The translations under genes were made by a program, and so were the position numbers. From Planctomycetota bacterium (GTDB lineage: Bacteria; Planctomycetota; Phycisphaerae; Sedimentisphaerales; Anaerobacaceae): 41,334 bases of DNA. Numbering within the stretch: the first letter of the stretch is position 1; every line of letters begins with the position of its first letter. A model generated the notes under the pieces. That model did no database searches. It was given only the letters and a program-made list of their open reading frames with translations, and was not told the DNA's origin. Shown piece after piece: positions 22,332-41,334 of the stretch. The DNA is taken from contig JACNGQ010000107.1 in assembly GCA_014384025.1 (NCBI GenBank), positions 1-41,334 of the forward strand. The letters are read 5' to 3'.

Positions 22332-22523
22332 TAGAATTAGTTAAACATGTGCCTGAAACAAAAAAACTCTCGTCCGGCTAAGTTGAACAGATAGCCGTGT
22401 GAGTAGATTATGTATTTTTGAATCGTCGTGACTTTGTGATGGAGGATGAGCATTTCCGATAATCACTATCGGCTTTTTCAATTAAGATTGTTTTCATTTA
22501 CATATTTTTCAAAAGGAGGATTT

Positions 22524-25500
22524 ATGATGTCCAAGAAATTATTCTATTTATCTCATATTATAGTGTTTAGTCTGATTCTGACATGCACAGCCAATGCCGC
22601 TGATCTTGTCGGATGGTGGACATTCGACGGAGATACGCTGGATTCGTCCGGTTTGAATAATGAGGCGACACTTGCCGGTGATCCGGAGTATGTCGAGGGT
22701 TGGCTCGGCCAGGCTGTATTCCTTGACGGGGACGACTATATAACGATGGACGGTGTGGCTGACAATATTCAGGGTAATGACATCACCATGAACGCCTGGG
22801 TCAAGACGGCCGATACGGGCGATTGGTTTTCAATCAATAGCAGTACCGGCGGCAATGTGGCTTTGCTTGCTACTGATAACCAGCGATTGGCGATGTATGA
22901 TAATGGCTACGAAGGCCATTCGACAACTATCGTTACCGATGGCCAGTGGCATATGCTGACTTATGTGCGGCGGGGCAGTACCGGTTACATTTATGTCGAT
23001 GGCGTACAGGAAAATAGTCACCAGGCGGATTTCAGCCTCAGCGCAGACGACCGCTGGTCTCTGGGACAGGAATGGGACGGCGAAGTGCCAAGTGATTTTC
23101 TGACAGGCACTATTGACGAGGTCCGCGTATATAAAGGTGGTCTGACCGATGAAGAGGTGATTGGATTGTTCAACAGTTCCACAACATCAGCGACCGCGTG
23201 GAGGCCACAGCCGGCAAATGGCCAAACGGAGGTCATGACAAATGAAGACCTTACCTGGGCCCCCGGTCTCGATGCGGTTTCTCGTAATGTTTACATTGGA
23301 ATAAATGAGGCCGATGTGGCTGCCGGTACCGGCGGAACGTCTCAAGGCAACCAAACGGCACTAAGCTACGACCCAGGTACGCTTTTGCCGGGAGTTACAT
23401 ATTATTGGCGGATTGACGAGGAAGCATCCGATGGCACGAGCATGCCCGGTGATATCTGGAGCTTTACAACAGTTGAGTTTGTGATTGTGGATGATTTCGA
23501 GGATTACAACGATTATCCACCGGACAGGATATATGATATTTGGAAAGACGGATGGGATGACCCTTCGAACGGTTCTCAGGCAGGTTACACAGATCCTTCT
23601 TTTACTGAGCAAACGATAGTTAAAAGTGGTGTCCAGTCCATGCCGTTTTTCTACGATAACGGCGCCTCTTCCTATTCTGAAGTTGTGCACACATTTGATA
23701 CTTCACAGGACTACACCCTAAACGGACTGATGGGGCTGACTCTTTGGTTTCAGGGCCGGCCGGCCAGCGTCGGCAGTCTTAGTTTTGATGCGGCGACTCA
23801 GACCTATATCATGACCGGCTCCGGGGCGGACATAGGAGGGACGTCTGATGAATTCCACTTTGCATACAAAACTCTCAATGGACCCGGTTCGATTGTGGCT
23901 AAGGTCGAGAGCCTGAGCGACACTCATTCCTGGGCCGAGGCGGGTGTGATGATCCGTAACACGCTGGAGGCGGACTCAATCCATGCGATGGTGGCAGTAA
24001 CACCGTCGGGCAGGGTTGCCTTTCAGTTCAGGTCAACTGTGGCCCAGGATAGTCACAGCACACATACCGGTACCGGTGTGATTACCGGTCCGCATTGGAT
24101 CAAACTAACGCGTTCGGCCAGCAACGTATTCACCGCTGAGCACTCTACCGATGGTGTCAACTGGTCACTTGTACAAAGCAATGATCCGGCAGATCCATCA
24201 AGCTGGAGCATGCCGATGGGCCAGAGTGTTTACGCAGGTCTTGTTGTTTCTGCTCACAATGCCAAAGCGACATGCGAGGCAACGTTTTCTAATGTTACGG
24301 CCGGTTCTCCCGGACCGTTTGTTGAGTCGCAGGACATAGGAATTTCCAGCAATTCTCCTGGCCCGCTATATTTAAGATTACAAGATACGTCCGGCATATC
24401 CGGCACAGTATTTCATGAAAATGGTAGGGAGGCAGTTTTTGCCGATGACTGGCAGTTGTGGGCAATTCCCCTGGAAGAATTCCAGACTGCAGGTGTGGAC
24501 TTAACAGCGATTAAAGAGATTGCCATTGGTGTCGGCGATAAGGACAATCCCCAATCTGGAGGCCTTGGCAGGCTGCTCATTGATGATATTCGACTGGTTC
24601 GCCACATACCAACTACAGGAAGAATCCTGCTATTTGAAGAAGATTTCGAAAGCCTGGTTTTGGGACCTAATGTGGATGAGGCACTTGCCGGCGGTGAAGT
24701 TTGGACAAAGATCCCCCCGGATGGTTGGGCAATTGATGATAGTGGTGTTCCCGGAGCCGGAGATGCGGCCAATGATGGCGTTACTGAGTGGGCCGGATGG
24801 AGTTTCGCGAACAAAACATGGTGGGCGGAAACAGCCGGTGACCAGGATCGCAGCCAATTCGTGTTGGCAAATGGTACGATTGCTGTTGTCGATCCGGATG
24901 AATGGGATGATATGGCCCGTGCCGAGGGTCTGATGAATAGCTTCCTGATTACTCCTGAGATTGATGTATCTGCGATAAAGGCTGGAGCAGGAACATTGCA
25001 GCTCAAATTTGATTCGAGCTGGCGTCCGGAAGACACACAGACTGCGAATGTCACGGTACAATTCGATGGTGGCGATCCCATCGAAGTAATGCGATGGGAA
25101 TCCCAGCCTGGAGCATCCTTTAAGCCCGATGCTACCAGTGAGACCGTTACAGTAAACATCGGCCGGCCATCAGGTGCCAAAAAGATGGTCGTTACATTTG
25201 GTATGCTCGATGCCGGAAACGATTGGTGGTGGGCAATTGACAACGTACAGGTCAGCGGGAATCCGAGAGAAAGAATCGTTGTCCTTGCAGAGGATTTCGA
25301 AGGCCTGGAGCTTGGCCCGAATGTGGATGAGAGTTCCGGTGATGAAGTATGGACTGATACGCCACCTGAAGGTTGGATAATTGATGAAAGTGGTGTGCCT
25401 GGAATCGGTAATCCGGCTACTGACGGTGTAACCGAGTGGGCCGGATGGGCCTTTACCAATAAGGATTGGTGGATCGGCGTAGCTGGTAATCAAAGGCGAG

Positions 25501-26615
25501 TTGAATTCGAGCTGGGTCAAGGTACTGTTGCTGTTGCTGACCCGGATGAGTGGGATGATGCGGATCATGCAGATTCGGCGGCATCGGGCTGGTATAAGAC
25601 TTTCCTCAGTACACCTTCACTTGATATAGCCGGTTTTGAGGCCGGCTCGGTTCAGATTAAATTCGATTCAAGCTGGCGTCCGGAGTTTGATAGCGATTAT
25701 CATCAGACGGGAAATCTGACCGCCTCCTTCGATGGAGCAGAGCCGATAGAGCTATTCCGATGGGAATCCGACCCGAGTAGTGCGAACTTTAAGCCCGATA
25801 CATCAACTAATGAAACTATCATCGTCGATTTGGAAGTTCCTACGGGAGTTACAAGCGTTGTCTTGACGTTTGGTTTATACGATGCAGGTAATGACTGGTG
25901 GTGGGCGATTGACAACCTGGAAGTCAGCGGTCTTCCCAGAGAAAGAGTTATTGCACTTTACGAGGACTTCGAAGGTTTGGAATTGGGTCCGAATGTGGAT
26001 GAGAGTTCTGGTGATGAAGTATGGACGGACACGCCGCCCGAGGGTTGGATAATTGATGAAAGTGGTGTACCCGGAATAGGTGATCCGGCTACTGATGGTG
26101 TGACCGAGTGGGCCGGATGGGCCTTTACCAATAAGGATTGGTGGATCGGCGTAGCTGGTAATCAAAGGCGAGTTGAATTCGAGCTTGGACAAGGTACTGT
26201 TGCTGTTGCTGACCCGGATGAGTGGGATGACGCGGATCATGCAGATTCGGCGGCATCGGGCTGGTATAAAACCTTCCTCAGTACGCCTGCAATTGATATT
26301 TCTGGTTTTGAGGCTGGTACGCTTCAACTCAAATTCGATTCGAGCTGGCGTCCTGAGTTTGATGACAATTATCACCAGACAGCAATAGTGACTGCCTCTT
26401 TCGATGGAGCGGATTCTTTCAGATTGCTACTTTGGGAATCCGATGGCAGCAGCCCGAACTTTAAACCGGACGCAACCAATGAAACGGTCATAGTTGATTT
26501 AGAGAATCCAGATGGGGCCACGAGTTTGGTTTTGGAATTTGGATTATTCGATGCCGGCAATGACTGGTGGTGGGCGATTGACAATGTAGAAGTCATCGGC
26601 AATATTGCTGAGTAA
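22524..26615 (+). CDS. Giant secreted LamG/FnIII-like protein with three tandem C-terminal repeats
   Basis: A 1363-residue exported protein. The ATG at 22524 (or the next codon, also ATG) follows AAGGAGG; a longer frame from 22446 lacks a Shine-Dalgarno sequence and would bury the signal peptide. In order: signal peptide 1-25 (ending TANA-AD), a LamG/concanavalin-like domain (about 27-222, DLVGWWTFDGDTLDSSG...GTIDEVRVYKGGLTDEEV), an FnIII-like unit (about 226-320, RPQPANGQTEV...YYWRIDE), a DFEDYNDYP segment and a DUF1349-like lectin fold (SWAEAGVMIRNTL...), then three repeats of 217-224 residues from about residue 700. Each repeat has DFExLxLGPNVDE, PPxGWxIDxSGVPG, FDSSWRPE and DAGNDWWWAIDNVxV. 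No catalytic domain or C-terminal anchor is seen; it probably binds glycans or forms surface structure. Confidence 0.85.
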   Translation: MMSKKLFYLSHIIVFSLILTCTANAADLVGWWTFDGDTLDSSGLNNEATLAGDPEYVEGWLGQAVFLDGDDYITMDGVADNIQGNDITMNAWVKTADTGDWFSINSSTGGNVALLATDNQRLAMYDNGYEGHSTTIVTDGQWHMLTYVRRGSTGYIYVDGVQENSHQADFSLSADDRWSLGQEWDGEVPSDFLTGTIDEVRVYKGGLTDEEVIGLFNSSTTSATAWRPQPANGQTEVMTNEDLTWAPGLDAVSRNVYIGINEADVAAGTGGTSQGNQTALSYDPGTLLPGVTYYWRIDEEASDGTSMPGDIWSFTTVEFVIVDDFEDYNDYPPDRIYDIWKDGWDDPSNGSQAGYTDPSFTEQTIVKSGVQSMPFFYDNGASSYSEVVHTFDTSQDYTLNGLMGLTLWFQGRPASVGSLSFDAATQTYIMTGSGADIGGTSDEFHFAYKTLNGPGSIVAKVESLSDTHSWAEAGVMIRNTLEADSIHAMVAVTPSGRVAFQFRSTVAQDSHSTHTGTGVITGPHWIKLTRSASNVFTAEHSTDGVNWSLVQSNDPADPSSWSMPMGQSVYAGLVVSAHNAKATCEATFSNVTAGSPGPFVESQDIGISSNSPGPLYLRLQDTSGISGTVFHENGREAVFADDWQLWAIPLEEFQTAGVDLTAIKEIAIGVGDKDNPQSGGLGRLLIDDIRLVRHIPTTGRILLFEEDFESLVLGPNVDEALAGGEVWTKIPPDGWAIDDSGVPGAGDAANDGVTEWAGWSFANKTWWAETAGDQDRSQFVLANGTIAVVDPDEWDDMARAEGLMNSFLITPEIDVSAIKAGAGTLQLKFDSSWRPEDTQTANVTVQFDGGDPIEVMRWESQPGASFKPDATSETVTVNIGRPSGAKKMVVTFGMLDAGNDWWWAIDNVQVSGNPRERIVVLAEDFEGLELGPNVDESSGDEVWTDTPPEGWIIDESGVPGIGNPATDGVTEWAGWAFTNKDWWIGVAGNQRRVEFELGQGTVAVADPDEWDDADHADSAASGWYKTFLSTPSLDIAGFEAGSVQIKFDSSWRPEFDSDYHQTGNLTASFDGAEPIELFRWESDPSSANFKPDTSTNETIIVDLEVPTGVTSVVLTFGLYDAGNDWWWAIDNLEVSGLPRERVIALYEDFEGLELGPNVDESSGDEVWTDTPPEGWIIDESGVPGIGDPATDGVTEWAGWAFTNKDWWIGVAGNQRRVEFELGQGTVAVADPDEWDDADHADSAASGWYKTFLSTPAIDISGFEAGTLQLKFDSSWRPEFDDNYHQTAIVTASFDGADSFRLLLWESDGSSPNFKPDATNETVIVDLENPDGATSLVLEFGLFDAGNDWWWAIDNVEVIGNIAE
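24621..26612 (+). repeat. Three in-frame tandem repeats of about 650-670 bp
   Basis: Repeat units start at 24621, 25272 and 25944, aligned on the codons before DFE and on the shared atgtggatgag at 24670, 25321 and 25993. Unit lengths are 651, 672 and about 669 bp. Units 2 and 3 share long stretches that are identical or nearly so, for example the roughly 80 bases beginning at the GAGTGGGCC near 25433 and 26105, while unit 1 is clearly diverged. This points to a recent duplication or conversion of unit 2/3. Confidence 0.9.
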
Positions 26616-26977
26616 GTCTTATAGTTGAAAAACGACTATGGCCAAATTGGGCTGCGAAAAGCATCTGCGAGGCCAAGCCATTAGCCAATGATTGTTTATC
26701 AATTCGGAGCCTATAGCGATTTATTAGCTACAGGCTCCTTAATTATTTCACAATACAAAACAAATCGAACAGCTATCTCCCCCAGAAAAATCTCATTATT
26801 GAGAATTCGTAGATTAAACATCCTTACCAAAGCTGTTTTGTCAATTTTTTTTGAAATCAACAACATTCTTTCATTTATATTTTTGTGAATATCCGCATTT
26901 TTGGCTCTAAAACCATGATTCAAAATAATTAAGCATATATATTTTTGAACCTCACTAAAAAAATAATGTTAATTTTG
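26616..26977. other. A/T-rich spacer upstream of the rex promoter
   Basis: No gene is supported here. Two short opposing open frames (near 26688-26923) have no Shine-Dalgarno sequence or family resemblance and cover the stem-loop and the A/T-rich leader, so they were rejected. Apart from the stem-loop at 26706-26738 I see nothing specific. Confidence 0.6.
26706..26738 (+). terminator. Stem-loop downstream of the secreted protein gene, possible terminator
   Basis: GGAGCCTATAGC (26706-26717) pairs with GCTACAGGCTCC (26727-26738) with one A-C mismatch and a nine-base loop. Only two T residues follow directly, so it is a weak intrinsic terminator, but it is about 90 bases after the stop of the giant gene and before the rex promoter, where a terminator is expected. 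Confidence 0.55.
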
Positions 26978-27006
26978 TTGACGTATATAACGAATATATA
27001 TACAAT
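26978..27006 (+). promoter_or_regulatory. Sigma70-like promoter of rex and the hydrogenase operon
   Basis: TTGACG at 26978-26983 and TACAAT at 27001-27006 are separated by exactly 17 bases, each matching five of six consensus positions. Transcription would start at about 27013, immediately ahead of the Rex operator. Confidence 0.7.
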
Positions 27007-27019
27007 GCAGCGGATAGAG

Positions 27020-27039
27020 CTTGTGTATGTGAACACAAG
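27020..27039 (+). promoter_or_regulatory. Rex operator (ROP site)
   Basis: CTTGTGT-ATGTGA-ACACAAG is a perfect inverted repeat with 7-base arms and a 6-base spacer. The inner 18 bases (27021-27038) fit the known Rex consensus TTGTGA-N6-TCACAA at ten of twelve arm positions. The site lies just downstream of the -10 box and 26 bases upstream of the rex start codon, so bound Rex should block initiation or early elongation. Rex leaves DNA when NADH is high, so the operon should be induced under reducing conditions. Confidence 0.85.
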
Positions 27040-27064
27040 TACAAACTATAGGATAGTATGATTT

Positions 27065-27688
27065 ATGAGATACAGCAGAATACCAGATGAGACTATTCGA
27101 CGGCTGCCAATATATTTGCGAGGATTAATTCTTGCGTCTGAACAGGACCAGAAGAACATATCAAGTACTAATCTGGCAGATTACGTTGGTATTTTTCCCT
27201 GGCAAATAAGAAAGGATTTTTCGTACTTTGGTGATTTTGGAACTCGTGGGGTAGGCTACAACGTTGTAAAACTCATGAAGGAAATTAAAAGAATCCTTAA
27301 ACTAAATATTGACCAGAAAGCAGCTTTGGTTGGAGTAGGTAATCTTGGTATGGCAATTTTGGCTTTTCCCGGCTTTGGTATATATGGCCTGGATATTGCG
27401 GCGGCTTTCGATGTTAATCCTAAAATAATTGGTAGAAAAATAAAGAATATCACGATTGAAAACATCTCTAGACTGAGTGGTATAAAGAAAAGGAAAATAA
27501 AACTTGCAGTTATTGCAGTGCCTCGTAAAGCTGCTCAGGAGACGGTGGATGTATTGATCAAAGCGGGTGTGAGAGGAATTTTAAATTTTTCTCCGTGTTA
27601 TTTAATAGTACCAAAAAAAGTGAAAGTAATAACTATTGATATTTCGATGGACATGGCCCGTTTGCCTTACTATATGCCGGCAAGTTGA
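27065..27688 (+). CDS. rex: Redox-sensing transcriptional repressor Rex
   Basis: A 207-residue protein of usual Rex length. Residues 1-80 form the winged helix, with the recognition region RKDFSYFGDFGTRGVGYNV (49-67) that is the family hallmark. The Rossmann domain begins AALVGVGNLGMAIL (GxGxxG at 90-95) followed by the acidic Asp in AAAFDVNPKIIGRKI, expected to bind NADH/NAD+. The C-terminal domain-swap helix is present. It senses the NADH/NAD+ ratio and represses fermentative and hydrogen-metabolism genes. Its own promoter carries a matching operator, and the hydrogenase genes follow on the same strand after 71 bases, so it is most likely the first gene of the operon and autoregulated. Confidence 0.96.
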   Translation: MRYSRIPDETIRRLPIYLRGLILASEQDQKNISSTNLADYVGIFPWQIRKDFSYFGDFGTRGVGYNVVKLMKEIKRILKLNIDQKAALVGVGNLGMAILAFPGFGIYGLDIAAAFDVNPKIIGRKIKNITIENISRLSGIKKRKIKLAVIAVPRKAAQETVDVLIKAGVRGILNFSPCYLIVPKKVKVITIDISMDMARLPYYMPAS

Positions 27689-27759
27689 TTTGTTAACACA
27701 AGTGATTATTCTGTAGTTTTTAAGATTATTAAATTAACAGATAAATATTGGTGAGTAAT

Positions 27760-28815
27760 ATGCAGACTGTTCTTATAAGTGAATTAAAGCCATTTCTGGA
27801 TGCCCTTGCTGAAGAGATGGACCTGTATGTTCCGAAGAAGTCCGGAGAGCATTATGTATATAATAGATACGACTCTTCTGCCAATGTCCAGATTGAATTC
27901 AATAACATTCGCACTTGTATGCCTGTAAAAGAGTTTTTATTCCCCTTACGAGAGCTTGCAGCAGTTTACCCGCAGCCAATTGAGCCGAAAGAAATAAGGC
28001 CATTTGCAGTTTTCGGGCTAAAATACTGCGATTTGCGTTCTATAGAAGTTCTGGACAGAGTTTTTGCGGAAGATGAATTCGAAGACTTGTTATATGTAAC
28101 CCGCAGGAAGAACATGTTCATAATATCATCCGATTGCTCTGAGCCGGCGGAGAGCTGTTTTTGTGATGTTTTAGGCGGAAAGCCCTTTGCTCAAGCAGGA
28201 TTTGATTTGAATGTTTCGCAGGTAAAGAACCAATATATTATCGAGACCGGTTCGCAAAGGGGCGAAGAATTTATAGAAAAACACTCCAGTCTTTTCACAG
28301 AGACGACCGAAGCCATATTGGCTGACCGGGACAAGAACAGAATTGAGACACAAAATCAACTTGAGCAAAATAATACAAATCTCAAGTTCGATGTTCCGGT
28401 TAACGAGATGGTTGAAAAAACCCAGGATTCTGATGTTTATGACGAAGAAGCGAAAACTTGTGTTGAATGCCAGGGGTGTACGCGGGTATGCCCTACCTGC
28501 CATTGTTTCTATCTTTATGATACCAAGCAAGAGGATTATTTTACAAAAATGAAGATGTGGGACAGTTGCATGAGGATTGCTTACGCTGAAGTTGCTGGTG
28601 GTACCAATCCCCGAAAGGCTCTTGGCAACAGACTCAGGCATCGTTTTATGCATAAGTTTTCATATTTTTTTGAAAGATACGGTATCGATATGTGTGTTGG
28701 ATGCGGCAGATGTGTTGACGGAGAAGCGGGGGACGTGGATATACGCAGAGTGTTAAAAAGATTGAGCGAAGAGCTAAAAGGTAAAGACAATAGAAGAGCG
28801 GAAACTGCAAAATGA
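27760..28815 (+). CDS. hydB: HydB/AsrA-like iron-sulfur subunit of the hydrogenase diaphorase module
   Basis: A 351-residue protein related to the beta subunit of cytosolic sulfhydrogenases and to anaerobic sulfite reductase subunit A. It has DCSEPAESCFCDVLGGKPFA in the middle (about 127-146), one ferredoxin-like cluster with Cys234, Cys237, Cys240 and Cys244 (CVECQGCTRVCPTCHCF) and a second motif Cys312, Cys315, Cys318 in which the expected fourth Cys is Glu322 (CVGCGRCVDGEAGDVDI). It should relay electrons between the flavin subunit and the rest of the complex. ATG at 27760 was chosen with GGTGAG four bases upstream. Its stop overlaps the next gene's ATG (ATGA). Such a subunit is unexpected in a membrane-bound group 4 hydrogenase. 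Confidence 0.88.
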   Translation: MQTVLISELKPFLDALAEEMDLYVPKKSGEHYVYNRYDSSANVQIEFNNIRTCMPVKEFLFPLRELAAVYPQPIEPKEIRPFAVFGLKYCDLRSIEVLDRVFAEDEFEDLLYVTRRKNMFIISSDCSEPAESCFCDVLGGKPFAQAGFDLNVSQVKNQYIIETGSQRGEEFIEKHSSLFTETTEAILADRDKNRIETQNQLEQNNTNLKFDVPVNEMVEKTQDSDVYDEEAKTCVECQGCTRVCPTCHCFYLYDTKQEDYFTKMKMWDSCMRIAYAEVAGGTNPRKALGNRLRHRFMHKFSYFFERYGIDMCVGCGRCVDGEAGDVDIRRVLKRLSEELKGKDNRRAETAK

Positions 28816-29633
28816 ATAGAAATCTCTACCAACCTATAAACGGCGGTATTGTTGATATTATAGATGAATCGCCAACGATTAAAAGTTTTGTCGTTGTACT
28901 GGAAGAAACATTCAAGTTCGAAACAGGCCAGTTTGTGGAGCTGACTTTACCCGGTGTCGGTGAGGCGCCTTTTACTCCTTCTTCATCACCTTATGATACT
29001 AAAAAGATGGAAATAACGATCATGAAGGCCGGTAAGATGACCGCTTTATTGCATGATTGCGAAAAAGGACAAAAAATCGGTATTCGGGGGCCTTATGGAA
29101 AAGGTTATCCGGTTGAAGATTTTGTCGGCAAGGACGTCTATATAATCGGTGGAGGTGTGGGTTTAGCGCCAATAAGGTCTTTGTTTTTGACACTTGTTGA
29201 CAGAATAGAAGCTTTTAAATCTGTTGTTTGTCGATTTGGTGCAAAAACGCCTGATGATTTTATTTACAAAAACACTCTTTTTGATTCCTGGCAGAAAATT
29301 GATGGTGTAGATATCAAACTGACCGTAGATGGAGCAAGCGGCAACTGGGACGGTAATATTGGTGTAGTAACCACTATACTTTCCTCTAATGATGTTGAAA
29401 TATCTAATGCGGTAGCGGTTGTGTGCGGCCCGCCGATTATGATGAAATTCGGTACTTTGAAATTATTGGAGTTCGGATTTAGTCCTGAGCAAATATATCT
29501 ATCTATGGAAAAAAATATGAGCTGCGGAGTAGGCAAGTGCGGCCACTGCATGGTTGGCAAGTATTATGTCTGTAAGGACGGTCCTGTCTTTACCTATGAC
29601 GAGGTAAAAGGTTATCCGAACATCTGGGATTGA
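28812..29633 (+). CDS. hydG: HydG/AsrB-like FAD/NAD(P)-binding diaphorase subunit
   Basis: A 273-residue ferredoxin-NADP reductase-like protein. The N-terminal barrel has GQFVELTLPGVGEAPFTPSSSP (FAD site), then the nucleotide domain with IGGGVGLAPIRSLFLTL and VVCGPPIMMKF. The C-terminus binds a [2Fe-2S] cluster via Cys238, Cys243, Cys246 and Cys254 (CGVGKCGHCMVGKYYVC). This is the architecture of sulfhydrogenase gamma and anaerobic sulfite reductase B subunits, which exchange electrons with NAD(P)H. No sulfite reductase AsrC gene is present, and a hydrogenase follows, so it probably serves the hydrogenase. The start overlaps the previous stop. Confidence 0.92.
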   Translation: MNRNLYQPINGGIVDIIDESPTIKSFVVVLEETFKFETGQFVELTLPGVGEAPFTPSSSPYDTKKMEITIMKAGKMTALLHDCEKGQKIGIRGPYGKGYPVEDFVGKDVYIIGGGVGLAPIRSLFLTLVDRIEAFKSVVCRFGAKTPDDFIYKNTLFDSWQKIDGVDIKLTVDGASGNWDGNIGVVTTILSSNDVEISNAVAVVCGPPIMMKFGTLKLLEFGFSPEQIYLSMEKNMSCGVGKCGHCMVGKYYVCKDGPVFTYDEVKGYPNIWD

Positions 29634-29686
29634 AAATCGTCGCGTATAAAACAAAGTATTAGATACGAAATAAGAGATACGTAATT

Positions 29687-30271
29687 ATGAACGCAAAGTT
29701 AATAATCGACCTGGCAAAATGCAGGCTTCAGGAAGAATCCGGGGTGCAGTGCTCGTATAAGCACCATCCAGAAAACAATGGATTTGACTCACTGCTGGAG
29801 CTGATTCGTTTTGCCTTGATATGTCGCAGGTGCGAGGCCGCGCCATGTATCAATGCCTGTCCGCAGGGGGCTTTAGAGAAGGTGCCGAGCGAAAAAGGCA
29901 ATATAATGGACAAGGTGTTGTTAGTCAGTTCCGGCCCAAAGGGAGCTTTGGAGAAAATGTCGAAAAAAAATGATGATGCCGGAATTCTTAAGCGGGCGAA
30001 TATGCTATGCACCGGCTGCGGCAGTTGTGCTATAGCATGTCCGTTCGGTACGATATACACCGATTTGATTCCTTTTCCAAGCAGCATATGTGATGTATGC
30101 AAAGACAGATTGGCGCCGGAAGAAAAACCATTGTGTGTAAGTACATGTCAGGACGGAAGCCTGGATTATAAAGAAGCTCATGCTGAAGATGGAACGGAAG
30201 AGGTTTTCGAGGATATAGTTGTTAAAGTTCCCGATGGTGCATTATGGGAGCCATTCTTAAAGAATAAATAA
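29687..30271 (+). CDS. Polyferredoxin electron-transfer subunit (HycB/HydN-like)
   Basis: A 194-residue 4Fe-4S protein of the HycB/HydN/DmsB-like type. Three cluster motifs are complete: Cys46/49/54/58 (CRRCEAAPCINACP), Cys108/111/114/118 (CTGCGSCAIACP) and Cys135/138/150/154. The N-terminal motif is degenerate: Cys12 and Cys22 keep the outer spacing of CxxCxxCxxxC, but the two middle ligands are Gln15 and Ser18, so one cluster is probably lost. It sits between the HydB/HydG pair and the membrane hydrogenase core, as expected for a connecting wire between the two modules (inference). A 53-base gap separates it from hydG. Confidence 0.88.
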   Translation: MNAKLIIDLAKCRLQEESGVQCSYKHHPENNGFDSLLELIRFALICRRCEAAPCINACPQGALEKVPSEKGNIMDKVLLVSSGPKGALEKMSKKNDDAGILKRANMLCTGCGSCAIACPFGTIYTDLIPFPSSICDVCKDRLAPEEKPLCVSTCQDGSLDYKEAHAEDGTEEVFEDIVVKVPDGALWEPFLKNK

Positions 30272-30285
30272 AAGGCAGAGAAGAA

Positions 30286-31230
30286 ATGACTGAGGCATTA
30301 CAGAATATATTTTGGATTCTGGTTTTTCCAGGTTTTGTGTTTACCATTGTATTGGGCCTGGTTGCCTGCTGGATAGTTCGCAAGGTCAGTGCTCTTGTGC
30401 AATGGAGAGTCGGCCCACCGCTTTTTCAGCCGTTCTACGATGTTATGAAACTGATGGGCAAGGAAACACTTATACCTCAGGATGGCCAGAGAGCCGTTTT
30501 TATTGCGGCCCCGATTGTCGGTTTAGCAGGCGTACTATTGCTTTCGACGATGCTCTGGCGGACAACTATCACCCAGAATGATTTTGTCGGCGATATTATT
30601 GTGGCGATTTATCTGATGATTCTTCCTTCATTGGCATTGATTCTCGGCAGCAGCGCCAGTGCCAGCCCCCACGCGTCAATCGGCACAAGCAGGGAGATGA
30701 AGCTTGTGATGGGCTATGAACTGCCGCTTGTTTTGGCCTTCATCATAGTAATTATAAAAACCGGCGGCCAGTTGAGTTTAGCTGAAATTACTAAATTTAC
30801 ACCTGCCCTTAGTATATCCGGAATGCTGGCTTTTCTCGTTTCATTATTGTGTATTCAGGCAAAACTCGGATTTGTTCCTTTTGATATAGCTGAGTCGGAA
30901 ACTGAAATTGCAAGTGGCTTAATTATGGAATATTCAGGTCCTTTGCTTGCGGTTTGGAAAATGATGCAGGCGATGATGCTGGTGGCTCTGCCGCTGTTTT
31001 TGGTAATGGTGTTTCTTGGTGGATTTGGTACTACTGCAGGATGGCCATTAGTATGGGGTATCGGCAAATATGTTTTGGTACTGGTCCTGATAATCCTGAT
31101 AAAAAATACAAATCCGCGTGTTCGGATTGACCAGGCGATGAAGTTCTTCTGGGTGTATTGCGGAATCGCTTTGGCCATAGCTATTATACTTGCATCAATA
31201 GGTAGTTATTATGACATCAACTGGCTGTAA
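30286..31230 (+). CDS. mbhM: Membrane anchor subunit of energy-converting hydrogenase (NuoH/MbhM/HycD-like)
   Basis: A 314-residue membrane protein with about eight helices. VQWRVGPPLFQPFYDVMKLMGKE (39-61) is the conserved cytoplasmic loop of the NuoH/HycD family and ISMFDIAESE-type segment FVPFDIAESETEIASGLIMEYSG (about 199-221) carries the acidic residues proposed to couple electron transfer to ion movement. It anchors the hydrophilic hydrogenase arm to the antiporter arm. The gap to the polyferredoxin gene is 14 bases and that to the small subunit gene 9 bases, with AAGGTGAG before the latter. Confidence 0.94.
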   Translation: MTEALQNIFWILVFPGFVFTIVLGLVACWIVRKVSALVQWRVGPPLFQPFYDVMKLMGKETLIPQDGQRAVFIAAPIVGLAGVLLLSTMLWRTTITQNDFVGDIIVAIYLMILPSLALILGSSASASPHASIGTSREMKLVMGYELPLVLAFIIVIIKTGGQLSLAEITKFTPALSISGMLAFLVSLLCIQAKLGFVPFDIAESETEIASGLIMEYSGPLLAVWKMMQAMMLVALPLFLVMVFLGGFGTTAGWPLVWGIGKYVLVLVLIILIKNTNPRVRIDQAMKFFWVYCGIALAIAIILASIGSYYDINWL

Positions 31231-31239
31231 GGTGAGTTT

Positions 31240-31671
31240 ATGAGTTGGAAAATTTGGTCATTAAAAAAATCGGTATGGGTCTTTCACGTTAATACCGGCG
31301 CATGTAATAATTGCGATATCGAAATAGTCAATTTACTGACGCCGAGATATGATGTGGAAAGATTTGGTATCAAGTTAGTAGGCTCACCACGACATGCTGA
31401 TGCTCTGCTGGTAACCGGCGTGGTTACCGCACAGGCGGCACCGAGATTACGGGAATTGTACCGCCAGACTTCAAAGCCCTGCGTTGTCTTTGCAATGGGA
31501 GCTTGTGCTTGTCAAACAGGTATATTTAACGGTGCTTACCATGTGGTTGGGCCGGTGGATAAGATAATCAGAGAAGTTGATCCTAATGCAATTATCGCTT
31601 ATGTGCCTGGCTGCCCACCGAAGCCGGAAGCCATGATATCCGGTGTAGTTAAGGCGCTGTCGATTTTATAA
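31240..31671 (+). CDS. mbhJ: [NiFe] hydrogenase small subunit, group 4 (NuoB/MbhJ/HycG-like)
   Basis: A 143-residue protein that binds the proximal [4Fe-4S] cluster next to the NiFe site: Cys22 and Cys25 (GACNNCDIE), Cys89 (MGACAC) and Cys125 (VPGCPPKPE). The short, signal-free form is that of group 4 energy-converting hydrogenases and complex I NuoB; CxxC spacing favours hydrogenase (MbhJ/HycG/EchC) over NuoB, which has adjacent Cys-Cys. It passes electrons to protons at the large subunit. Confidence 0.94.
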   Translation: MSWKIWSLKKSVWVFHVNTGACNNCDIEIVNLLTPRYDVERFGIKLVGSPRHADALLVTGVVTAQAAPRLRELYRQTSKPCVVFAMGACACQTGIFNGAYHVVGPVDKIIREVDPNAIIAYVPGCPPKPEAMISGVVKALSIL

Positions 31672-31683
31672 CAGGACAGGAAT

Positions 31684-32124
31684 ATGAACCAGGAAGAATT
31701 AAATAACAGGTTGTCGGAAATAAAAGATAAGCTCATAAATATTGAGCAAACGAAGGACAGCAGAATCTTTCTTTTATGCGAGGCCGAAAATAGTTTTGCC
31801 GTCAGTAAGTTCTTATTTGAAGACCTGGCTTTAAGATTTATGATTGCTACAGGGATCGATTCTGAAGATTGTTTTGAAATTCTTTATCATTTTTCAAATG
31901 ACGGGACTGGTTGTGTTGTTACCGTAAAGGCCTTTATCCGTGACCGTGAAAATCCTTCTATAGAATCTATTACCCCGTTCATACCCGCTGCAGAGTGGAT
32001 AGAAAGGGAGATATACGACATATTGGGAATCGAAATTAAAAATCATCCTAATATGAGAAGATTGATTTTGGCTGATGATTGGCCCGAGGGTGTTTATCCT
32101 TTAAGGAAAGATTTCAAAAGATGA
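31684..32124 (+). CDS. mbhK: NuoC/MbhK-like accessory subunit
   Basis: A 146-residue protein with the NuoC (30-kDa) signature at its end: ITPFIPAAEWIEREIYDILGIEIKNHPNMRRLILADDWPEGVYPLRKDF. The glutamate-rich WIEREIYDxxGI helix packs against the large subunit in complex I and Mbh. It carries no cofactor. The stop overlaps the large subunit ATG (ATGA at 32121-32124). In some related systems this part is fused to the large subunit (HycE), but here it is separate. Confidence 0.92.
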   Translation: MNQEELNNRLSEIKDKLINIEQTKDSRIFLLCEAENSFAVSKFLFEDLALRFMIATGIDSEDCFEILYHFSNDGTGCVVTVKAFIRDRENPSIESITPFIPAAEWIEREIYDILGIEIKNHPNMRRLILADDWPEGVYPLRKDFKR

Positions 32125-33338
32125 AAGAAAGCGTAAATAAACCGATTCTTGCAGTCGGTCCGTTTCATCCGCTGCAGGAAGAGATGGAATATTTCCAGCT
32201 TACCGTTGATGGTGAAATCGTAACCGATATAGATGTCAGGATATCTTATAACCATCGAGGTATAGAGCGGCTGAGCGAAACACTGCAGTACGATCAGATT
32301 CCGTTTCTGGTTTCGCGTATATGCGGAATATGCTCGGCGTCACATCCCTTAGCATACATAAATGCTGTCGAGGAGATTGCCGGGATAACACCGCCTGATC
32401 GTGCTTTGTACGTCCGCACGATTATAAACGAGCTTGAGCGCATCCACAGTCATCTGCTGTGGGTCGGTCTTGGGGGGCACTTTATCGGTTATGACACAGT
32501 TTTTATGTGGGCGTGGAAATACCGTGAGCCGGTCCTTGATTTGTTGGAAGCAATTACGGGCAACAGAAACAATTACGGGAACGTTAAGGTCGGTGGCTGT
32601 CGGGAAGATATTCCCAATGAGCTTATCCCTAAGATACTTAAAGAGCTCGATTTAGTCGAAAAGAAAACAGATATGCTAACCAAGGCTATTCTTGACGACC
32701 CTGTTCTGCACGTACGGCTTAAAGGCGTAGGAACACTGAGTAAGGAAGACGCCATCAGCTATGCGGTAACTGGCCCGACCGCCAGGGGCAGCGGAATTGC
32801 CATTGATGTCAGGCACGATGATCCGTATGCGGCTTACGCAGATTTAGACTGGAAGGTAATCACTCAGACGGAAGGTGATGTTTTTGCAAAAGCTGTTGTT
32901 CGGCTTCTTGAGATCTTCGAAAGTATAAAGATGGTCAGGCAGGCCCTAAAAAAACTCCCTGATGGTCCTATTGCTGTTGAGGTAAAGGAAATACCCCCTG
33001 GGGAGGGTTTTGGTCGCGCCGAGGCTCCAAGAGGTGAAACCTTCCATTACATTCGCAGCGACGGCGGCAACAGGCCGGTTCGACACAAGGTAAGAGCACC
33101 GAGTTATGTCAATGTACCTTCGTTTAAGGCATCATGTATCGGTCAGCATATTGCTGATGTAACGCTTACACTTGCTGCGGTTGACCCTTGTTATAGCTGC
33201 ACCGAAAGGTTGGCGGTTGTCGATGGGCGTAAAAATGTTGTCCATGATTATGATGCGCTTTTGAGATTGTCTCGTGAGAAAACTGCACGGATTAAGAAAG
33301 AAATCGGCGTACCTGAAATTAAGCTGGAGGATTTCTAA
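32121..33338 (+). CDS. mbhL: [NiFe] hydrogenase large subunit, group 4 (MbhL-like)
   Basis: A 405-residue catalytic subunit. The N-terminal nickel motif is R66-I-C68-G-I-C71-S-A-S-H75 and the C-terminal one is D355-P-C357-Y-S-C360-T-E-R, so all four Ni ligands are present; this distinguishes it from NuoD, which lacks them. After DPCYSCTER a 42-residue tail follows, consistent with removal by the maturation protease encoded at 40114. It reduces protons to H2 (or oxidises H2) in the cytoplasm. The true start is the ATG overlapping the mbhK stop; a longer frame from 32079 is an artefact of overlap with mbhK. Confidence 0.96.
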   Translation: MKESVNKPILAVGPFHPLQEEMEYFQLTVDGEIVTDIDVRISYNHRGIERLSETLQYDQIPFLVSRICGICSASHPLAYINAVEEIAGITPPDRALYVRTIINELERIHSHLLWVGLGGHFIGYDTVFMWAWKYREPVLDLLEAITGNRNNYGNVKVGGCREDIPNELIPKILKELDLVEKKTDMLTKAILDDPVLHVRLKGVGTLSKEDAISYAVTGPTARGSGIAIDVRHDDPYAAYADLDWKVITQTEGDVFAKAVVRLLEIFESIKMVRQALKKLPDGPIAVEVKEIPPGEGFGRAEAPRGETFHYIRSDGGNRPVRHKVRAPSYVNVPSFKASCIGQHIADVTLTLAAVDPCYSCTERLAVVDGRKNVVHDYDALLRLSREKTARIKKEIGVPEIKLEDF

Positions 33339-33339
33339 A

Positions 33340-35217
33340 TTGAAGGAAATGAATATTCTCTATATCTCTGTCTTTTTGCCGCTGATTGTGGGCTTTTTGA
33401 TGTTATTTTTGCCGAATAAAATAAAGTCGGTATCAAGGGCATTAACGTTTATTATTTCTGTTGTTACATTTGTGCTTGGCATTAAGATATTTACCGGGGG
33501 TGAATCTGATTACATTTTACCTATACTCCAGTTGGGTGAAAGTTTAGGCGGCCTGGAACTGGAACTGATGCTGACAGTCAAACCTTTGGGAGCATTTATA
33601 TTAATGTTTGCGATGGGCTTTGGCCTGTTGATAACTTTATATTCATTAAAATCTGTCGGCGCAAATACGAAACGCATCAATGAGTATTACGGTGCGATTT
33701 TGCTTACAATAGGCGGCACCGCGGGCATACTGCTTTCCGATCACTTACTGTTTTTGTTGGTATTCTGGGAGATTGTTACCGTCTCGTTATATATTTTAAT
33801 AACTACGGGAGGCAACAAGTCCAATTTTGCAGCGACAAAAAGCTTTGCAATGATAGGTGCCTCCGATGCTGCGTTCATGCTCGGCGTCTTTATGATATGG
33901 AAACTTTCGGGAACATTTGTCATATCAAATATTGACCTGGCGACTAATTCGACACTTTCGATTATAGCCTTCCTGTTGCTTATGACAGCCGCAATTACCA
34001 AAGCAGGCGCATTGCCCTTGCATACATGGGTGCCTACAAGCGGAGAATATGCGCCGGTCTCGGCGATGGCACTTTTGCCGGCCGCAATTGATAAGCTTTT
34101 GGGCATTTATCTGCTTGTGATTGTTGTGCGAGAAATATTTGATATTCAGCCGGGGGCCTTGACTGTTGTATTGTCAATCATAGGCTCGGCTACGATTGTT
34201 ATCGCCGTCATGGTTGCGATGGTTCAGCACAACCTCAAAAAGCTGCTGTCATATCACGCTATAAGCCAGGTCGGTTATATGATACTTGGTATAGCAACAT
34301 GCACGCCTGTAGGTATCGCAGGTGGTATATTCCATATGCTGAACAACGCGATTTATAAGTGTTGCTTATTCTTATGCGGCGGTGCGGTCGAGCAGGCTTC
34401 CGGAACTGCTGAACTGGACAAGCTTGGTGGACTGGGAAACAAAATGTCCATCACTTTTACCACCTGCCTGATTGCAGCTCTGAGTATTTCCGGGATACCT
34501 CCTCTTAACGGATTTGTTTCCAAATGGATGATTTATCAGGGTGTAATTAAAATGGGAACACAACAAACCGGTGGAACTGCCGGCTTTTGGCCCATCTGGC
34601 TTACTTGTGCTATGTTCGGAAGTGCGCTTACTTTAGCCTCGTTTGTAAAACTCATACATTCGATATTCCTATCCCGCCTGCCGGACAAACTCAAAGATGT
34701 TAAAGAAGTATCCCCGTTCATGACGGTTCCAATGGTTGTGCTTGCATCACTCTGCGTGTTTTTCGGAGTATTCTACCACGTACCGCTCAAACTTTTCATT
34801 TATCCTGCGTTGGGTATAGAACCAGGCTCAGCAATTTTTGGCACCTGGATGTCGGGCCTTTCCACAATCCTGTTAATAATTGGTATTGGTCTTGGATTGC
34901 TCATCTGGCTTTTTGCGAAATTGTCGAAGAATGTCAGGATTGTACCCACATGGACCTGTGGTGAAGTGCAGAGTAATGAATCAATGAGAATACCCGGGAC
35001 ACATTTTTACAAAACTGTTTCGAGAATGAGCGGTCTTAAGCAGCTTTACTCTGGTCAGGAAAAAGGATATTTCGATCCTTACGATCAAGGCGGAAAAGCC
35101 GGACTGGGTCTGACTGCTTTTCTGAAATGGCTTCATTCCGGTGTGTTGCCGGTGTATTTGACCTGGGTAGTTTTGGGATTATTGATAATTATATTTGTAA
35201 TTTGCAAAGTTCAATGA
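33340..35217 (+). CDS. Antiporter-like membrane subunit (NuoL/HyfB/MrpA-N type)
   Basis: A polytopic protein of about 625 residues in the proton-conducting transporter family. Key conserved residues are seen: Glu in LLVFWEIVTVSLYIL, Lys in TKAGALPLHTWVPT and the LLSYHAISQVGYMILGI helix. The last part, TWTCGEVQSNESMRIPGTHFYKT, resembles the HyfB/HycC C-terminus. It likely forms one ion channel of the complex. Either TTG at 33340 (GGAGG nine bases upstream) or ATG at 33349 could be the start; the longer frame from 33274 lies inside mbhL. It is the first of two antiporter-like subunits in the operon. Confidence 0.92.
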   Translation: MKEMNILYISVFLPLIVGFLMLFLPNKIKSVSRALTFIISVVTFVLGIKIFTGGESDYILPILQLGESLGGLELELMLTVKPLGAFILMFAMGFGLLITLYSLKSVGANTKRINEYYGAILLTIGGTAGILLSDHLLFLLVFWEIVTVSLYILITTGGNKSNFAATKSFAMIGASDAAFMLGVFMIWKLSGTFVISNIDLATNSTLSIIAFLLLMTAAITKAGALPLHTWVPTSGEYAPVSAMALLPAAIDKLLGIYLLVIVVREIFDIQPGALTVVLSIIGSATIVIAVMVAMVQHNLKKLLSYHAISQVGYMILGIATCTPVGIAGGIFHMLNNAIYKCCLFLCGGAVEQASGTAELDKLGGLGNKMSITFTTCLIAALSISGIPPLNGFVSKWMIYQGVIKMGTQQTGGTAGFWPIWLTCAMFGSALTLASFVKLIHSIFLSRLPDKLKDVKEVSPFMTVPMVVLASLCVFFGVFYHVPLKLFIYPALGIEPGSAIFGTWMSGLSTILLIIGIGLGLLIWLFAKLSKNVRIVPTWTCGEVQSNESMRIPGTHFYKTVSRMSGLKQLYSGQEKGYFDPYDQGGKAGLGLTAFLKWLHSGVLPVYLTWVVLGLLIIIFVICKVQ

Positions 35218-35224
35218 GGTTAAT

Positions 35225-35776
35225 ATGTATATCTTCTACTTCTTACTGATTTTTATGATAATCGCTGCTATCATTGCGATAGAAACTAAAAATCTGTTAA
35301 GTTCCGTAATCTGCATCAGTGCCCTCGGATTCGGCGCTTCTTTGATGTTTCTTTTTTTACGGGCGCCGGACATTGCGATAACACAGATTGTGGTGGATAT
35401 TTTGGCTTTGATTATCCTGATTCGCTCTACAATCTCACGCGATCTCACTTTTATCAGTGGTGACAAAGAATTCTTCGGGACGGTCGTTTCTGTTGTTATT
35501 ATTTTCATAATATTTTTAGCCGGCGTAAAAGTATTTGAGACATTGCCTGATTTTGGAACCGCCATCTTTGCCCGAGTACCCAATGCTGCTTCTCAGACAT
35601 ATATCAAAGAGGGACTTGAAAAGACGGGAGCGGCGAACATTGTATCATCTGTTATTTTGGATTACCGCGCCTATGATACACTTGGAGAGGCAACTGTTTT
35701 ATTTACTGCTATTATAGGAGCAACTGTAATCCTGCGAAAAAAAGCAAAAAAACTGCTGGAGGAACCTGATTTATGA
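35225..35776 (+). CDS. Fused MbhD/MbhE-like (MrpA C-terminal, DUF4040) subunit
   Basis: A 183-residue membrane protein. Residues 1-75 have the DUF4040/MbhD pattern (ICISALGFGASLMFLFLRAPDIAITQIVVDILALIILIR), equal to the last helices of MrpA. Residues 90-183 look like MbhE, with helices around SVVIIFIIFLAGVKVF and the conserved end ILDYRAYDTLGEATVLFTAIIGATVILRK. In Pyrococcus these are two genes, while in Mrp they are part of MrpA, so this is an intermediate arrangement. GAGGT precedes the ATG and the stop overlaps the next start. Confidence 0.9.
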   Translation: MYIFYFLLIFMIIAAIIAIETKNLLSSVICISALGFGASLMFLFLRAPDIAITQIVVDILALIILIRSTISRDLTFISGDKEFFGTVVSVVIIFIIFLAGVKVFETLPDFGTAIFARVPNAASQTYIKEGLEKTGAANIVSSVILDYRAYDTLGEATVLFTAIIGATVILRKKAKKLLEEPDL

Positions 35777-36234
35777 AAGGTATGACAATAATAGTAAAAA
35801 CTATCAGCAGTTGGGTTAAGGTGCTGATAGTGCTCTTCGGTATTTATATAATTCATTCCGGGCATCTTAGCCCCTGCGGGGGCTTTGCCGGTGGTGTGTT
35901 TTTAGCATCGTCTTATCTGCTGCTTATGCTGGCATTCGGCAGAGACGTAGTCGAGAGAGAGTTGCCACCGTCTGTTGCTCTGAAAATCGCCTGTTGGGCA
36001 GCTTTCACTTTTGCTGCGATAGCGATTAGCGGATTATTTTTTGGTAAAAACGAGTTTTTCTGGAATTATATTTACCAAAAATGGTTAGCTGGCGCGGGTA
36101 TCGAAGTTCATTTTATAGCAGCAGGGACCATATCCTTGGCCGAGTTTGCGATTGGATTGTTAGTTGGAGCGTTATTATTCCTGGTAATATTGAATCTTTC
36201 GACATTTAGACGAGATACGTCAGCCAGCAGATAA
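35773..36234 (+). CDS. mnhB: Mrp-type antiporter subunit B (MnhB/MbhF)
   Basis: A 153-residue protein with about four helices. HSGHLSPCGGFAGGVFLASSYLLL (28-51) is the hallmark of MnhB/MrpB (GHxxPGGGFxxG), with Cys in place of one Gly. It is a structural and coupling subunit of the Mrp Na+/H+ antiporter arm. The ATG overlaps the stop of the preceding gene. Confidence 0.93.
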   Translation: MKGMTIIVKTISSWVKVLIVLFGIYIIHSGHLSPCGGFAGGVFLASSYLLLMLAFGRDVVERELPPSVALKIACWAAFTFAAIAISGLFFGKNEFFWNYIYQKWLAGAGIEVHFIAAGTISLAEFAIGLLVGALLFLVILNLSTFRRDTSASR

Positions 36235-36331
36235 ATAAGTTTGCACCATTGGAAATTGTATTATGAGGTAATAATAAGATAATAAAAGAAGATATAATAT
36301 AAATTGGAAATTTTTTAATGGGGTAGTATTA
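36235..36331 (+). other. Widest gap inside the hydrogenase operon
   Basis: This 97-base A/T-rich gap breaks the otherwise tight operon. TTGGAA (36249-36254) and TAATAA (36272-36277), 17 bases apart, could be a weak internal promoter for the second half of the antiporter genes. I see no terminator hairpin, so read-through is likely. Confidence 0.25.
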
Positions 36332-36700
36332 ATGCCTTATGCACTTTGCTTTTTACTGTTTATGCTCGGCCTATATTGTGCGGTCGTAAAAAAGAATATG
36401 GTCAAGATTGTCATAGGAATTTTGATCATGGAATATGCCGTCAATCTTTTCCTTGTTATGCTCGGTTTTCGTGTTGGCGGTATAGCTCCAATAATCGACA
36501 GAGCTCAGTATGATCCTGTAATACAGCAGGTTGCGGCCGGTTTTGTCAACAACTCGGTGGATCCATTGCCTCAGGCCCTTGTACTGACGTCAATTGTTAT
36601 TAGTTTAGGTTCATTGGCCCTTATGATTTCAATATGTATCAGAACTTACGAAAAATACGGCACCTTTGATATCACTCAAATAAGGAGATTAAAAGGATGA
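36332..36700 (+). CDS. mnhC: Mrp-type antiporter subunit C (MnhC/MbhG, NuoK-like)
   Basis: A 122-residue protein with three helices, in the NuoK/MrpC family. KKNMVKIVIGILIMEYAVNLFLVMLGF includes the conserved acidic Glu in TM2, and PQALVLTSIVISLGSLALMISI is the third helix (PQALVLTAIVI is highly conserved in MrpC). It contributes to the ion path beside the two antiporter-like subunits. Its stop overlaps the next gene's ATG (ATGA). Confidence 0.94.
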   Translation: MPYALCFLLFMLGLYCAVVKKNMVKIVIGILIMEYAVNLFLVMLGFRVGGIAPIIDRAQYDPVIQQVAAGFVNNSVDPLPQALVLTSIVISLGSLALMISICIRTYEKYGTFDITQIRRLKG

Positions 36701-38214
36701 GCATACCGCTGCCCCTTTTTATTGCTGTTCCCTTAATAATAGCTTTTGTGCTTCCGATGTTCGGCAGAAAAGGCAAGGCTGTTGCAACTGCCTTAGCCAA
36801 TATGGTAACCATTTCACTGCTTGTTTTTGCTGTTGCTTCTATTGGTAAAACCGAGGTTTATGAAATAGGTAAATGGTCTATCCCTCTTGGTATTAATCTT
36901 GTCCTTGACGGCTTAAGCTCTCTTTTGCTTTTGGCTATTAATGTTGTAGCCGCTGCTGCTATGCTCTTTAGCATCAAGTATATGGAACAATACACCGCCA
37001 AGACAAAATACCTGAGCCTGTTTCTGCTTATGGTCGCGGGTATGAACGGTGTCGTGCTGTCCGGAGATATATTTAATCTGTTTGTTTTTCTGGAAATTGC
37101 ATCGCTTGCATCTTATGCGCTCGTAGGTTTTGGCTGTGATCACGAAGAGCTTGAAGCGTCCTTTAAGTATATGGTATTGGGCAGTATAGCTTCGGTATTC
37201 ATTCTTTTTGCGATTGCACTTATTTACGGCAATACCGGCACTCTTAATATGGCCTATATTTCAAAGGCAATCCAGAACTCGGGCTTAAATGCCGGCCTTA
37301 CCTTTGCACTGGCCATGTTTATGGCCGGCTTTGGATTAAAAGCCGCTCTCGTACCGTTTCATGCCTGGCTGCCGGATGCACACCCGTCGGCCCCAGCACC
37401 TATTTCCGCAATGCTTTCAGGTGTTTTGATTAAGGCCCTTGGAGTATATTCACTGGCAAGGATTATCTTCAATGTTTTTGGTGTATCTGTTGCCGTTGGC
37501 TGGGTATTGATTACATTGGGTGTTCTAAGTATGGTCGTTGGTGTATTCCTGGCTGTGGGTCAATGGGACTTTAAGCGTCTTTTGGCTTATCATAGCATAT
37601 CACAAATGGGTTATGTTATTCTTGGATTAGGTATCGGGGCGTTGATACTTGCCAACAATGGCAAAGTTGAGTGGGCGGCAATGGCGATTTTGGGAGGCAT
37701 GTTTCACCTTGTCAACCATGCAGTCTTCAAATCGTTGTTATTTTTGACGAGTGGTTCAGTGGAGATGTCCACAGGCACAAGGCAGCTCAAGGAGTTGGGC
37801 GGGCTTGCCGAGAAATTACCTTTTACGCGGGCAACATGTACCGTAGCGTCGGCGTCCATTGCAGGGATACCCCCATTCAATGGATTCTGGAGCAAAATGA
37901 TACTTGTCATCGCCTCGGTTCAGGCGGGATTTCTGTGGTTGGCCGCGGTTACGGTTATTGTCAGCCTTGTGACGCTTATCTCTTTTCTAAAGATTCAGCG
38001 ATATGTCTTTCTCGGTGAGCTGCCTGAAAATCTCCGGCAGACAAAAGAAAATAAAGGTTTTATGCTCATTGCGATGGTATTTTTGGCCTGTTTATGCCTG
38101 CTTATGGGTTCGCTCGTGCTGGTGCCCGGTTTGAAGGAAAGTATTCTGGAACCGGCTGTTAAGGTGTTGACTGATGGACTTAATTACTCCGCTAATATAA
38201 TCCCAAAGTTATAG
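36697..38214 (+). CDS. mnhD: Mrp-type antiporter subunit D (MnhD/MbhH)
   Basis: A 505-residue polytopic protein of the proton-conducting family. FNLFVFLEIASLASYALV carries the TM5 Glu, KAALVPFHAWLPDAHPSAPAPISAMLSGVLIKALGVYSLARI carries the TM7/8 Lys and His, and RLLAYHSISQMGYVILGLG is the helix-8 pattern. It is the second antiporter-like subunit of the complex and a main candidate for the ion channel. Length and order (C-D-E-F-G) match mrp operons. Confidence 0.95.
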   Translation: MSIPLPLFIAVPLIIAFVLPMFGRKGKAVATALANMVTISLLVFAVASIGKTEVYEIGKWSIPLGINLVLDGLSSLLLLAINVVAAAAMLFSIKYMEQYTAKTKYLSLFLLMVAGMNGVVLSGDIFNLFVFLEIASLASYALVGFGCDHEELEASFKYMVLGSIASVFILFAIALIYGNTGTLNMAYISKAIQNSGLNAGLTFALAMFMAGFGLKAALVPFHAWLPDAHPSAPAPISAMLSGVLIKALGVYSLARIIFNVFGVSVAVGWVLITLGVLSMVVGVFLAVGQWDFKRLLAYHSISQMGYVILGLGIGALILANNGKVEWAAMAILGGMFHLVNHAVFKSLLFLTSGSVEMSTGTRQLKELGGLAEKLPFTRATCTVASASIAGIPPFNGFWSKMILVIASVQAGFLWLAAVTVIVSLVTLISFLKIQRYVFLGELPENLRQTKENKGFMLIAMVFLACLCLLMGSLVLVPGLKESILEPAVKVLTDGLNYSANIIPKL

Positions 38215-38231
38215 AATGAGGATTTGAACGT

Positions 38232-38735: not shown

Positions 38736-38741
38736 AAAGAG

Positions 38742-39330: not shown

Positions 39331-39393
39331 AAAAAGCTAATTGCTGTATTAATAAATAATAATCAATTAACTATATAATGCGGGAGTATAAAA

Positions 39394-40002: not shown

Positions 40003-40113
40003 ATAGTGATACTCAAGAACTCAAAAACGTAAAACTTTAGCAAGGAATTCCAGGATTTTGCATTGAGAGTCGCAGGTTTCCCTTTTTTGCTTTGCTTATT
40101 GTGAATTGATGCT

Positions 40114-40602: not shown

Positions 40603-40623
40603 ATCATGCCGATGGACGCAGAT

Positions 40624-41305: not shown

Positions 41306-41334
41306 ATGGAGATATTAAAAACTGATGACTGGTA
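41306..41334 (+). CDS. Possible start of a gene running off the right edge (partial)
   Basis: An ATG at 41306 opens a frame (MEILKTDDW) without a stop to the window end. AGAAGG lies thirteen bases upstream, which is far for a Shine-Dalgarno sequence, and TATAAT at 41260-41265 could be a -10 box. Only nine codons are visible, so this is weak. The short minus-strand frame over 41091-41300 shows no family features and was not accepted. Confidence 0.25.

Follow-up and report, generated by a model that had tools for sequence, protein, structure and literature searches.

Members of the Rex family are described as bound to their operators and repressing when NADH is low, and as released when NADH is high (PMC8063818). 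Canonical Rex operators are 18–20 bp long, and the published general consensus is TTGTGAANNNNTTCACAA (PMC6391272). In Caldithrix abyssi, rex heads a hydrogenase operon and a candidate Rex site lies 38 bp upstream of it (PMC5317091), and the Rex of Caldicellulosiruptor bescii binds its own promoter and those of the [NiFe] Ech and [FeFe] hydrogenases in mobility shift assays (PMC6391272). Rex has also been predicted at hydrogenase promoters in Thermoanaerobacterium. A hydrogenase operon headed by rex is therefore no novelty, as Caldithrix shows. In other regulator families, QacR and CprB (PMC4150764) and Zur and DtxR (PMC4219657) bind overlapping operators as dimers of dimers.

Here we analysed a 41,334-nt stretch of DNA from a Planctomycetota bacterium (hereafter, the window), for which a Rex site in front of rex and a hydrogenase operon had been predicted. 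This overall picture is supported by the identity of Rex, the conserved order of promoter and operator, and the hydrogenase genes downstream. We establish here the genes, a promoter-like sequence, a predicted operator, their conservation, and the link to hydrogenase and Mrp genes. The predicted operator is also larger than first noticed: it reaches position 27045 and holds two overlapping registers, and its presence sets one clade of Rex proteins apart.

Rex and the hydrogenase operon

The gene at 27065–27688 (+) encodes a 207-aa protein with a winged helix and a Rossmann domain and is the sole PF06971 match in the genome. Its original reading as rex was confirmed by the curated model NCBIfam NF003995 (234.9 bits, cut-off 126; other Rex models scored partly above and partly below their cut-offs), by the N-terminal winged helix (PF06971, 58.6 bits over 27) and C-terminal Rossmann (PF02629, 73.3 over 22.3) domains, and by Rex structures as the best PDB matches. 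The nearest named matches were from Phycisphaerae and Sedimentisphaerales metagenome-assembled genomes (MAGs). G90, G92, and G95 of the glycine-rich loop and the Arg-Lys pair of the recognition helix (R49 and K50) were invariant in 23 sequences. Tyr98 of Thermus Rex contacts NAD (PMC8063818); the residue that we map to it, 101 (27365–27367), is Phe in the window and Tyr in most of the clade described next.

After removal of duplicates and four short pieces, 128 distinct full rex genes were retained, and a tree was built from 126 of them, leaving out two without upstream DNA. The window's Rex falls into a clade of 61 of the 126 rows (SH-aLRT 92), comprising 57 planctomycete sequences and one each from Neomarinimicrobiota (L112), Bipolaricaulota (L114), Aegiribacteria (L119), and Fermentibacteria (L123).

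Downstream of rex, all on the forward strand, profile matches identified a HydB-like Fe-S subunit (AsrA/HydB/ShyB homologue; 27760–28815), a HydG-like FAD/NAD(P)-binding subunit (AsrB/HydG/ShyC homologue; 28812–29633), a 4Fe-4S ferredoxin-like subunit (29687–30271), Mrp/Mbh membrane subunits (MrpD-like, MbhD/E, and MnhB, C, D, E, F, and G; 33349–39330), and a NuoI-like ferredoxin subunit (39394–40002). NuoH-, NuoB-, NuoC-, and NuoD-like subunits occupy 30286–33338, and a HycI-type hydrogenase maturation protease (TIGR00142, 119.8 bits, cut-off 119.1) lies at 40114–40602. The NuoD-like large subunit (32115–33338) contains both CxxC motifs, RICGIC and DPCYSC, and the enzyme is therefore a [NiFe] group-4-type hydrogenase; its closest solved structure is the Pyrococcus membrane-bound hydrogenase 6cfw (E 2.4e-86). 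The hydrogenase operon expected behind rex is thus present, and its HydG, predicted to be a diaphorase, is with HydB a homologue of NAD(P)H modules, although both score below the NCBIfam equivalog cut-offs. Over 27760–40602, a group-4 Mbh/Mrp core is joined with these HydB/HydG-like modules. A large subunit 83% identical to that of the window was observed in a Bipolaricaulota MAG (L267, G160:C217:2440-3570), reflecting either recent transfer or MAG contamination.

To describe the genes behind rex across the clade, we used the 56 of 61 rows with readable downstream DNA. Hydrogenase (n = 48) or Mrp (n = 4) genes came next in 52 of them: 19 had a close group-4-type hydB, 29 a more distant hydB (<48% identical), and four Mrp genes. 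Outside the clade, none of 62 readable rows had hydB or Mrp genes next to rex. The four other clade rows include L095 and L113, where rex sits behind the hydrogenase cluster, as well as L011 and L005. We also inspected the Rex-headed Mrp operons of Neomarinimicrobiota, Aegiribacteria, and Fermentibacteria (stretches L278–L280, around L112, L119, and L123), where a large-subunit homologue about 8.3 kb downstream of rex has no nickel-iron cysteine motifs. The target there thus looks like an Mrp-linked oxidoreductase, presumably of the Mbx kind, and not like a hydrogenase, which weakens the notion that every clade member regulates a hydrogenase.

The predicted promoter and operator in front of rex

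The predicted promoter was found as described, with the −35 hexamer TTGACG at 26978–26983 and the −10 hexamer TACAAT at 27001–27006 (+), separated by 17 nt and matching 10 of the 12 hexamer letters. The gene ahead of it (22446–26615) codes for 1389 aa; its product has a LamG domain at the N terminus and internally contains long repeats with 56–72% self-similarity. Promoter-like sites as such were found 41 times in 25000–41334, compared with 35.3 ± 6.3 in shuffles. Across relatives, a TTGACA-like −35 element (≥5/6 letters) occurs within 75 bp before the operator in 59/59 clade sites compared with 34% of shuffles, the best −35 starts with TTGAC in 56 of the 59, and the order of promoter then operator is found again before orthologous rex genes. 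Between the −10 and the operator, these sites have a median spacing of 12 nt; in the window it is 14 nt. The promoter and operator had been said to overlap; this holds for the inferred start region but not for the hexamers, as the operator starts 14 nt past the −10.

The operator predicted in front of the rex ATG (27065), CTTGTGT-N6-ACACAAG, is CTTGTGTATGTGAACACAAG at 27020–27039 (+). Its first register (27021–27038) agrees with the canonical ROP pattern TTGTG-N8-CACAA at 10/10 fixed letters; the window contains no other exact match. The description as near-perfect does not hold for the published consensus TTGTGAANNNNTTCACAA, from which the site departs at 3 of 14 fixed letters; all three mismatches are internal, with only one of four inner letters agreeing. 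The departure at operator positions 11–12 is clade-wide, and the inner mismatches are explained by the two-register reading given below.

The bare pattern is no proof of function, and its rarity was dropped as an argument, because the genome (6.69 Mb, 448 contigs) contains seven exact matches with about 6.4 expected (by arithmetic from ten fixed bases). The significance of the site instead comes from its placement and conservation. One further exact match, TTGTGTATATGAACACAA (L036, C326:23303), sits where one gene ends and another begins and is treated as chance; the two genes are presumably parts of an altronate dehydratase. A scan for further copies, as originally suggested, thus gave near-chance numbers, and no second operon-upstream composite site was found in this genome, so a global Rex regulon was rejected for it.

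A 26-bp composite block in one Rex clade

A Rex site upstream of rex (≥8/10 ROP letters) was detected in 59 of the 61 clade rows and in 38 of the 65 other rows; the two clade rows without one are L095 and L113, whose rex sits behind hydrogenase genes. In 61 relatives' genomes, rex orthologues at least 53% identical have the site upstream in nearly all readable cases, and by coordinate comparison all ten zero-mismatch matches of its 17-bp core TGTGAATGTGAACACAA in those genomes lie just upstream of rex.

We profiled 38 clade representatives (Rex identity <72%) and, for comparison, 33 other Rex sites. The conserved unit in the clade is TTTGTGAATGTGAACACAAGCACNAA, which spans 26 bp and not 18 bp; information content is high between positions −1 and +24, apart from position 22, and drops to approximately zero outside. 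The right flank GCACNAA is conserved, with 0.6–1.2 bits at positions 19–21, 23, and 24. In contrast, the 33 other representatives show the 18-bp ROP alone with an A-rich centre. The layout TTTGTG-NN-TGTG-NN-CACA-NN-CACAAA can be read as a pair of Rex sites shifted by 6 bp relative to each other, and in sequence symmetry it has two overlapping dyads, as do dimer-of-dimers operators. In the window, the block is CTTGTGTATGTGAACACAAGTACAAA at 27020–27045 (+), with four half-sites. Its second register (27027–27044, +), ATGTG-N8-TACAA, has two mismatches, and its half-sites are conserved in relatives. The weak points in the window are the TACAA half-site and the outermost letter, C at 27020, which is off consensus.

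The inner TGTG (≥3/4 letters) is present in 56/59 clade sites (all but L014, L025, and L107) versus 2/38 outside (L149 and L159), with the register picked in both groups by one rule that favours the inner TGTG; here, and in the comparison of block with clade Rex below, the counts cover related sequences and Fisher values overstate their independence. On the tree, the composite state required 6 changes, whereas none of 200 label shuffles needed fewer than 23. The operator of L005 is degraded. L011 has a complete operator before rex even though the neighbours are not hydrogenase genes, and therefore the operator follows rex. These neighbours are presumably sugar-nucleotide genes.

In the order as a whole, the 26-bp pattern (≤3 mismatches) was found in 86 of 158 genomes, with 118 matches versus 7 for the reversed control (our own sum). 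It was present in 79/97 genomes with a clade Rex and 7/61 without; the 18 of 97 clade-Rex genomes lacking a match are partly due to degenerate operators that score under the cut. A total of 28 block places, picked mainly as not adjoining a known rex, were inspected. Four precede rex, and five precede hydB of hydrogenase operons without an adjacent rex (L191, L196, L244, L245, and L249). Single targets are a HoxE/NuoE–NuoF-like pair about 290 bp away (L193), an hdrC-like gene (L248), a nicotinate phosphoribosyltransferase gene (L264, 3 mismatches), and one gene at L247; 15 places had no sensible target. Targets at L245, L249, L196, L193, L248, L247, and L264 were named by profile scan, and those at L191 and L244 by resemblance. 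In the operon around L196 (stretch L282), the motifs RICGIC and DPCISC are present in the large subunit.

Scattered through the window's genus (g1) and G019 are palindromes of 26 bp that are near-perfect, TTTGTGCATGTGAACGCATTCACAAA and its variants (L232–L237, L227, L239, and L240), including two copies in the window's own genome (L048 and L238; C91:642-667 and C302:7558-7583). They share the four half-sites of the Rex operator and lie mostly behind genes, at gene ends, with no operon following; they may be coincidence, a mobile repeat, or a decoy. Composite-like palindromes also occur in three genomes of family f7 (L260, L261, and L264), the L264 copy 40 bp before the nicotinate phosphoribosyltransferase gene. 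The gene ahead of these three is, we assume, parB-like.

Proposed regulation and its relation to known systems

Taken together, it is probable that the promoter drives rex and the hydrogenase operon, and that Rex, released by NADH, represses them through the clade-specific composite operator. Repression by Rex, the response to NADH, and co-transcription would here follow the pattern of the Rex family. A sigma-70-type promoter (26978–27006) would transcribe rex and the ~13.5-kb hydrogenase operon behind it. With little NADH, Rex would occupy 27020–27045 just past the start point and block initiation or promoter escape; given an operator that starts 14 nt past the −10, bound Rex would stand in the way of RNA polymerase at the start point or immediately after it. 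NADH would free Rex from the operator, so that hydrogenase is made as reduced NAD accumulates, and by consuming NADH the enzyme would shut off its own operon again.

For two standard Rex sites overlapping at a 6-bp offset, the simplest reading would be two dimers on different helix faces, the mode shown for QacR, CprB, Zur, and DtxR; judging from symmetry, we put the chances that each 26-bp operator takes two Rex dimers at about even. A broader proposal, offered tentatively, is that in this Rex branch (Phycisphaerae and at least four other bacterial lineages that have Mrp-type or hydrogenase operons) a cooperative dimer pair on the 26-bp operator may form a switch devoted almost entirely to hydrogenase (low-potential electrons), kept while the enzyme was swapped between the group-4 Mbh type and the distant HydB/HydG type. 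Compared with an 18–20-bp Rex switch, such an operator, longer and with two registers, could make the response to NADH steeper and allow a cell to keep two Rex proteins apart. Hydrogenase targets in uncultured planctomycetes are also predicted by it.

The same block may instead be an ordinary Rex operator, a credible though somewhat doubtful reading, with one dimer on 27021–27038 and a centre and right flank that only adjust affinity or DNA shape, or that select against a second Rex. The 10/10 outer register fits this, as does the 18–20 bp length of canonical Rex operators (PMC6391272), and second Rex genes with plain sites do exist in the same order (e.g., L161–L163 and L169–L172). However, the right flank is conserved beyond an 18–20-bp site, and the window's genome keeps the block with a single Rex, for which reason discrimination between paralogues was rejected as its sole explanation.

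Recognition of the block by a different regulator, e.g., a CRP/FNR-type TGTGA-N6-TCACA protein, alone or with Rex, is improbable. TGTGA is present twice, and in G013 (95% complete) and G025 (77%) the block precedes hydB though no Rex was found, an absence that is weak given the incomplete assemblies. Against such a regulator, the right arm is mostly ACACA or GCACA and not TCACA, the block tracks the Rex clade across phyla (L112, L114, L119, and L123), and it remains with the orphan rex of L011. Finally, that the 5′ leader forms an RNA hairpin in place of a DNA operator is highly improbable, and this reading was rejected: the inverted repeat does lie downstream of the inferred start and ahead of the ATG, but its five stem pairs showed zero compensatory double changes in 59 sequences, which argues against an RNA element, pair 3–14 was T–T in nine and T–G in nine of them, and the distance between operator and rex start codon is variable among clade sites (~28–78 nt).

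The Rex-controlled locus proposed here can be compared with several known systems. Among solved structures, the large subunit of Pyrococcus 6cfw is the closest to that of the window. The Pyrococcus enzyme presumably likewise has an Mrp-type membrane arm, whereas the window operon adds the HydB/HydG-like NAD(P)H modules. As in the window, a hydrogenase operon is headed by rex in Caldithrix abyssi, with a candidate Rex site upstream of rex; that system differs in its NAD-dependent [FeFe]-hydrogenase and in its site, cTGTGAATCAATTCACAt, which lacks the inner TGTG and is a prediction only (PMC5317091). C. bescii shares Rex at its own and hydrogenase promoters, with binding shown there and predicted here, but has a global regulon with 18-bp operators, in contrast to the one convincing operon-upstream site in the window's genome (PMC6391272). 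QacR, CprB, Zur, and DtxR resemble the block in having overlapping dyads on one operator with four half-sites; they belong to unrelated families, and the binding of two dimers is proved there, whereas here we infer it (PMC4150764, PMC4219657). Our literature searches turned up no report that we recognised of overlapping Rex operators or of Rex in Planctomycetes, which does not establish their absence in print. As far as our searches show, the clade-specific 26-bp composite operator, with its putative two-dimer binding, is the new and undescribed part of an otherwise familiar arrangement.
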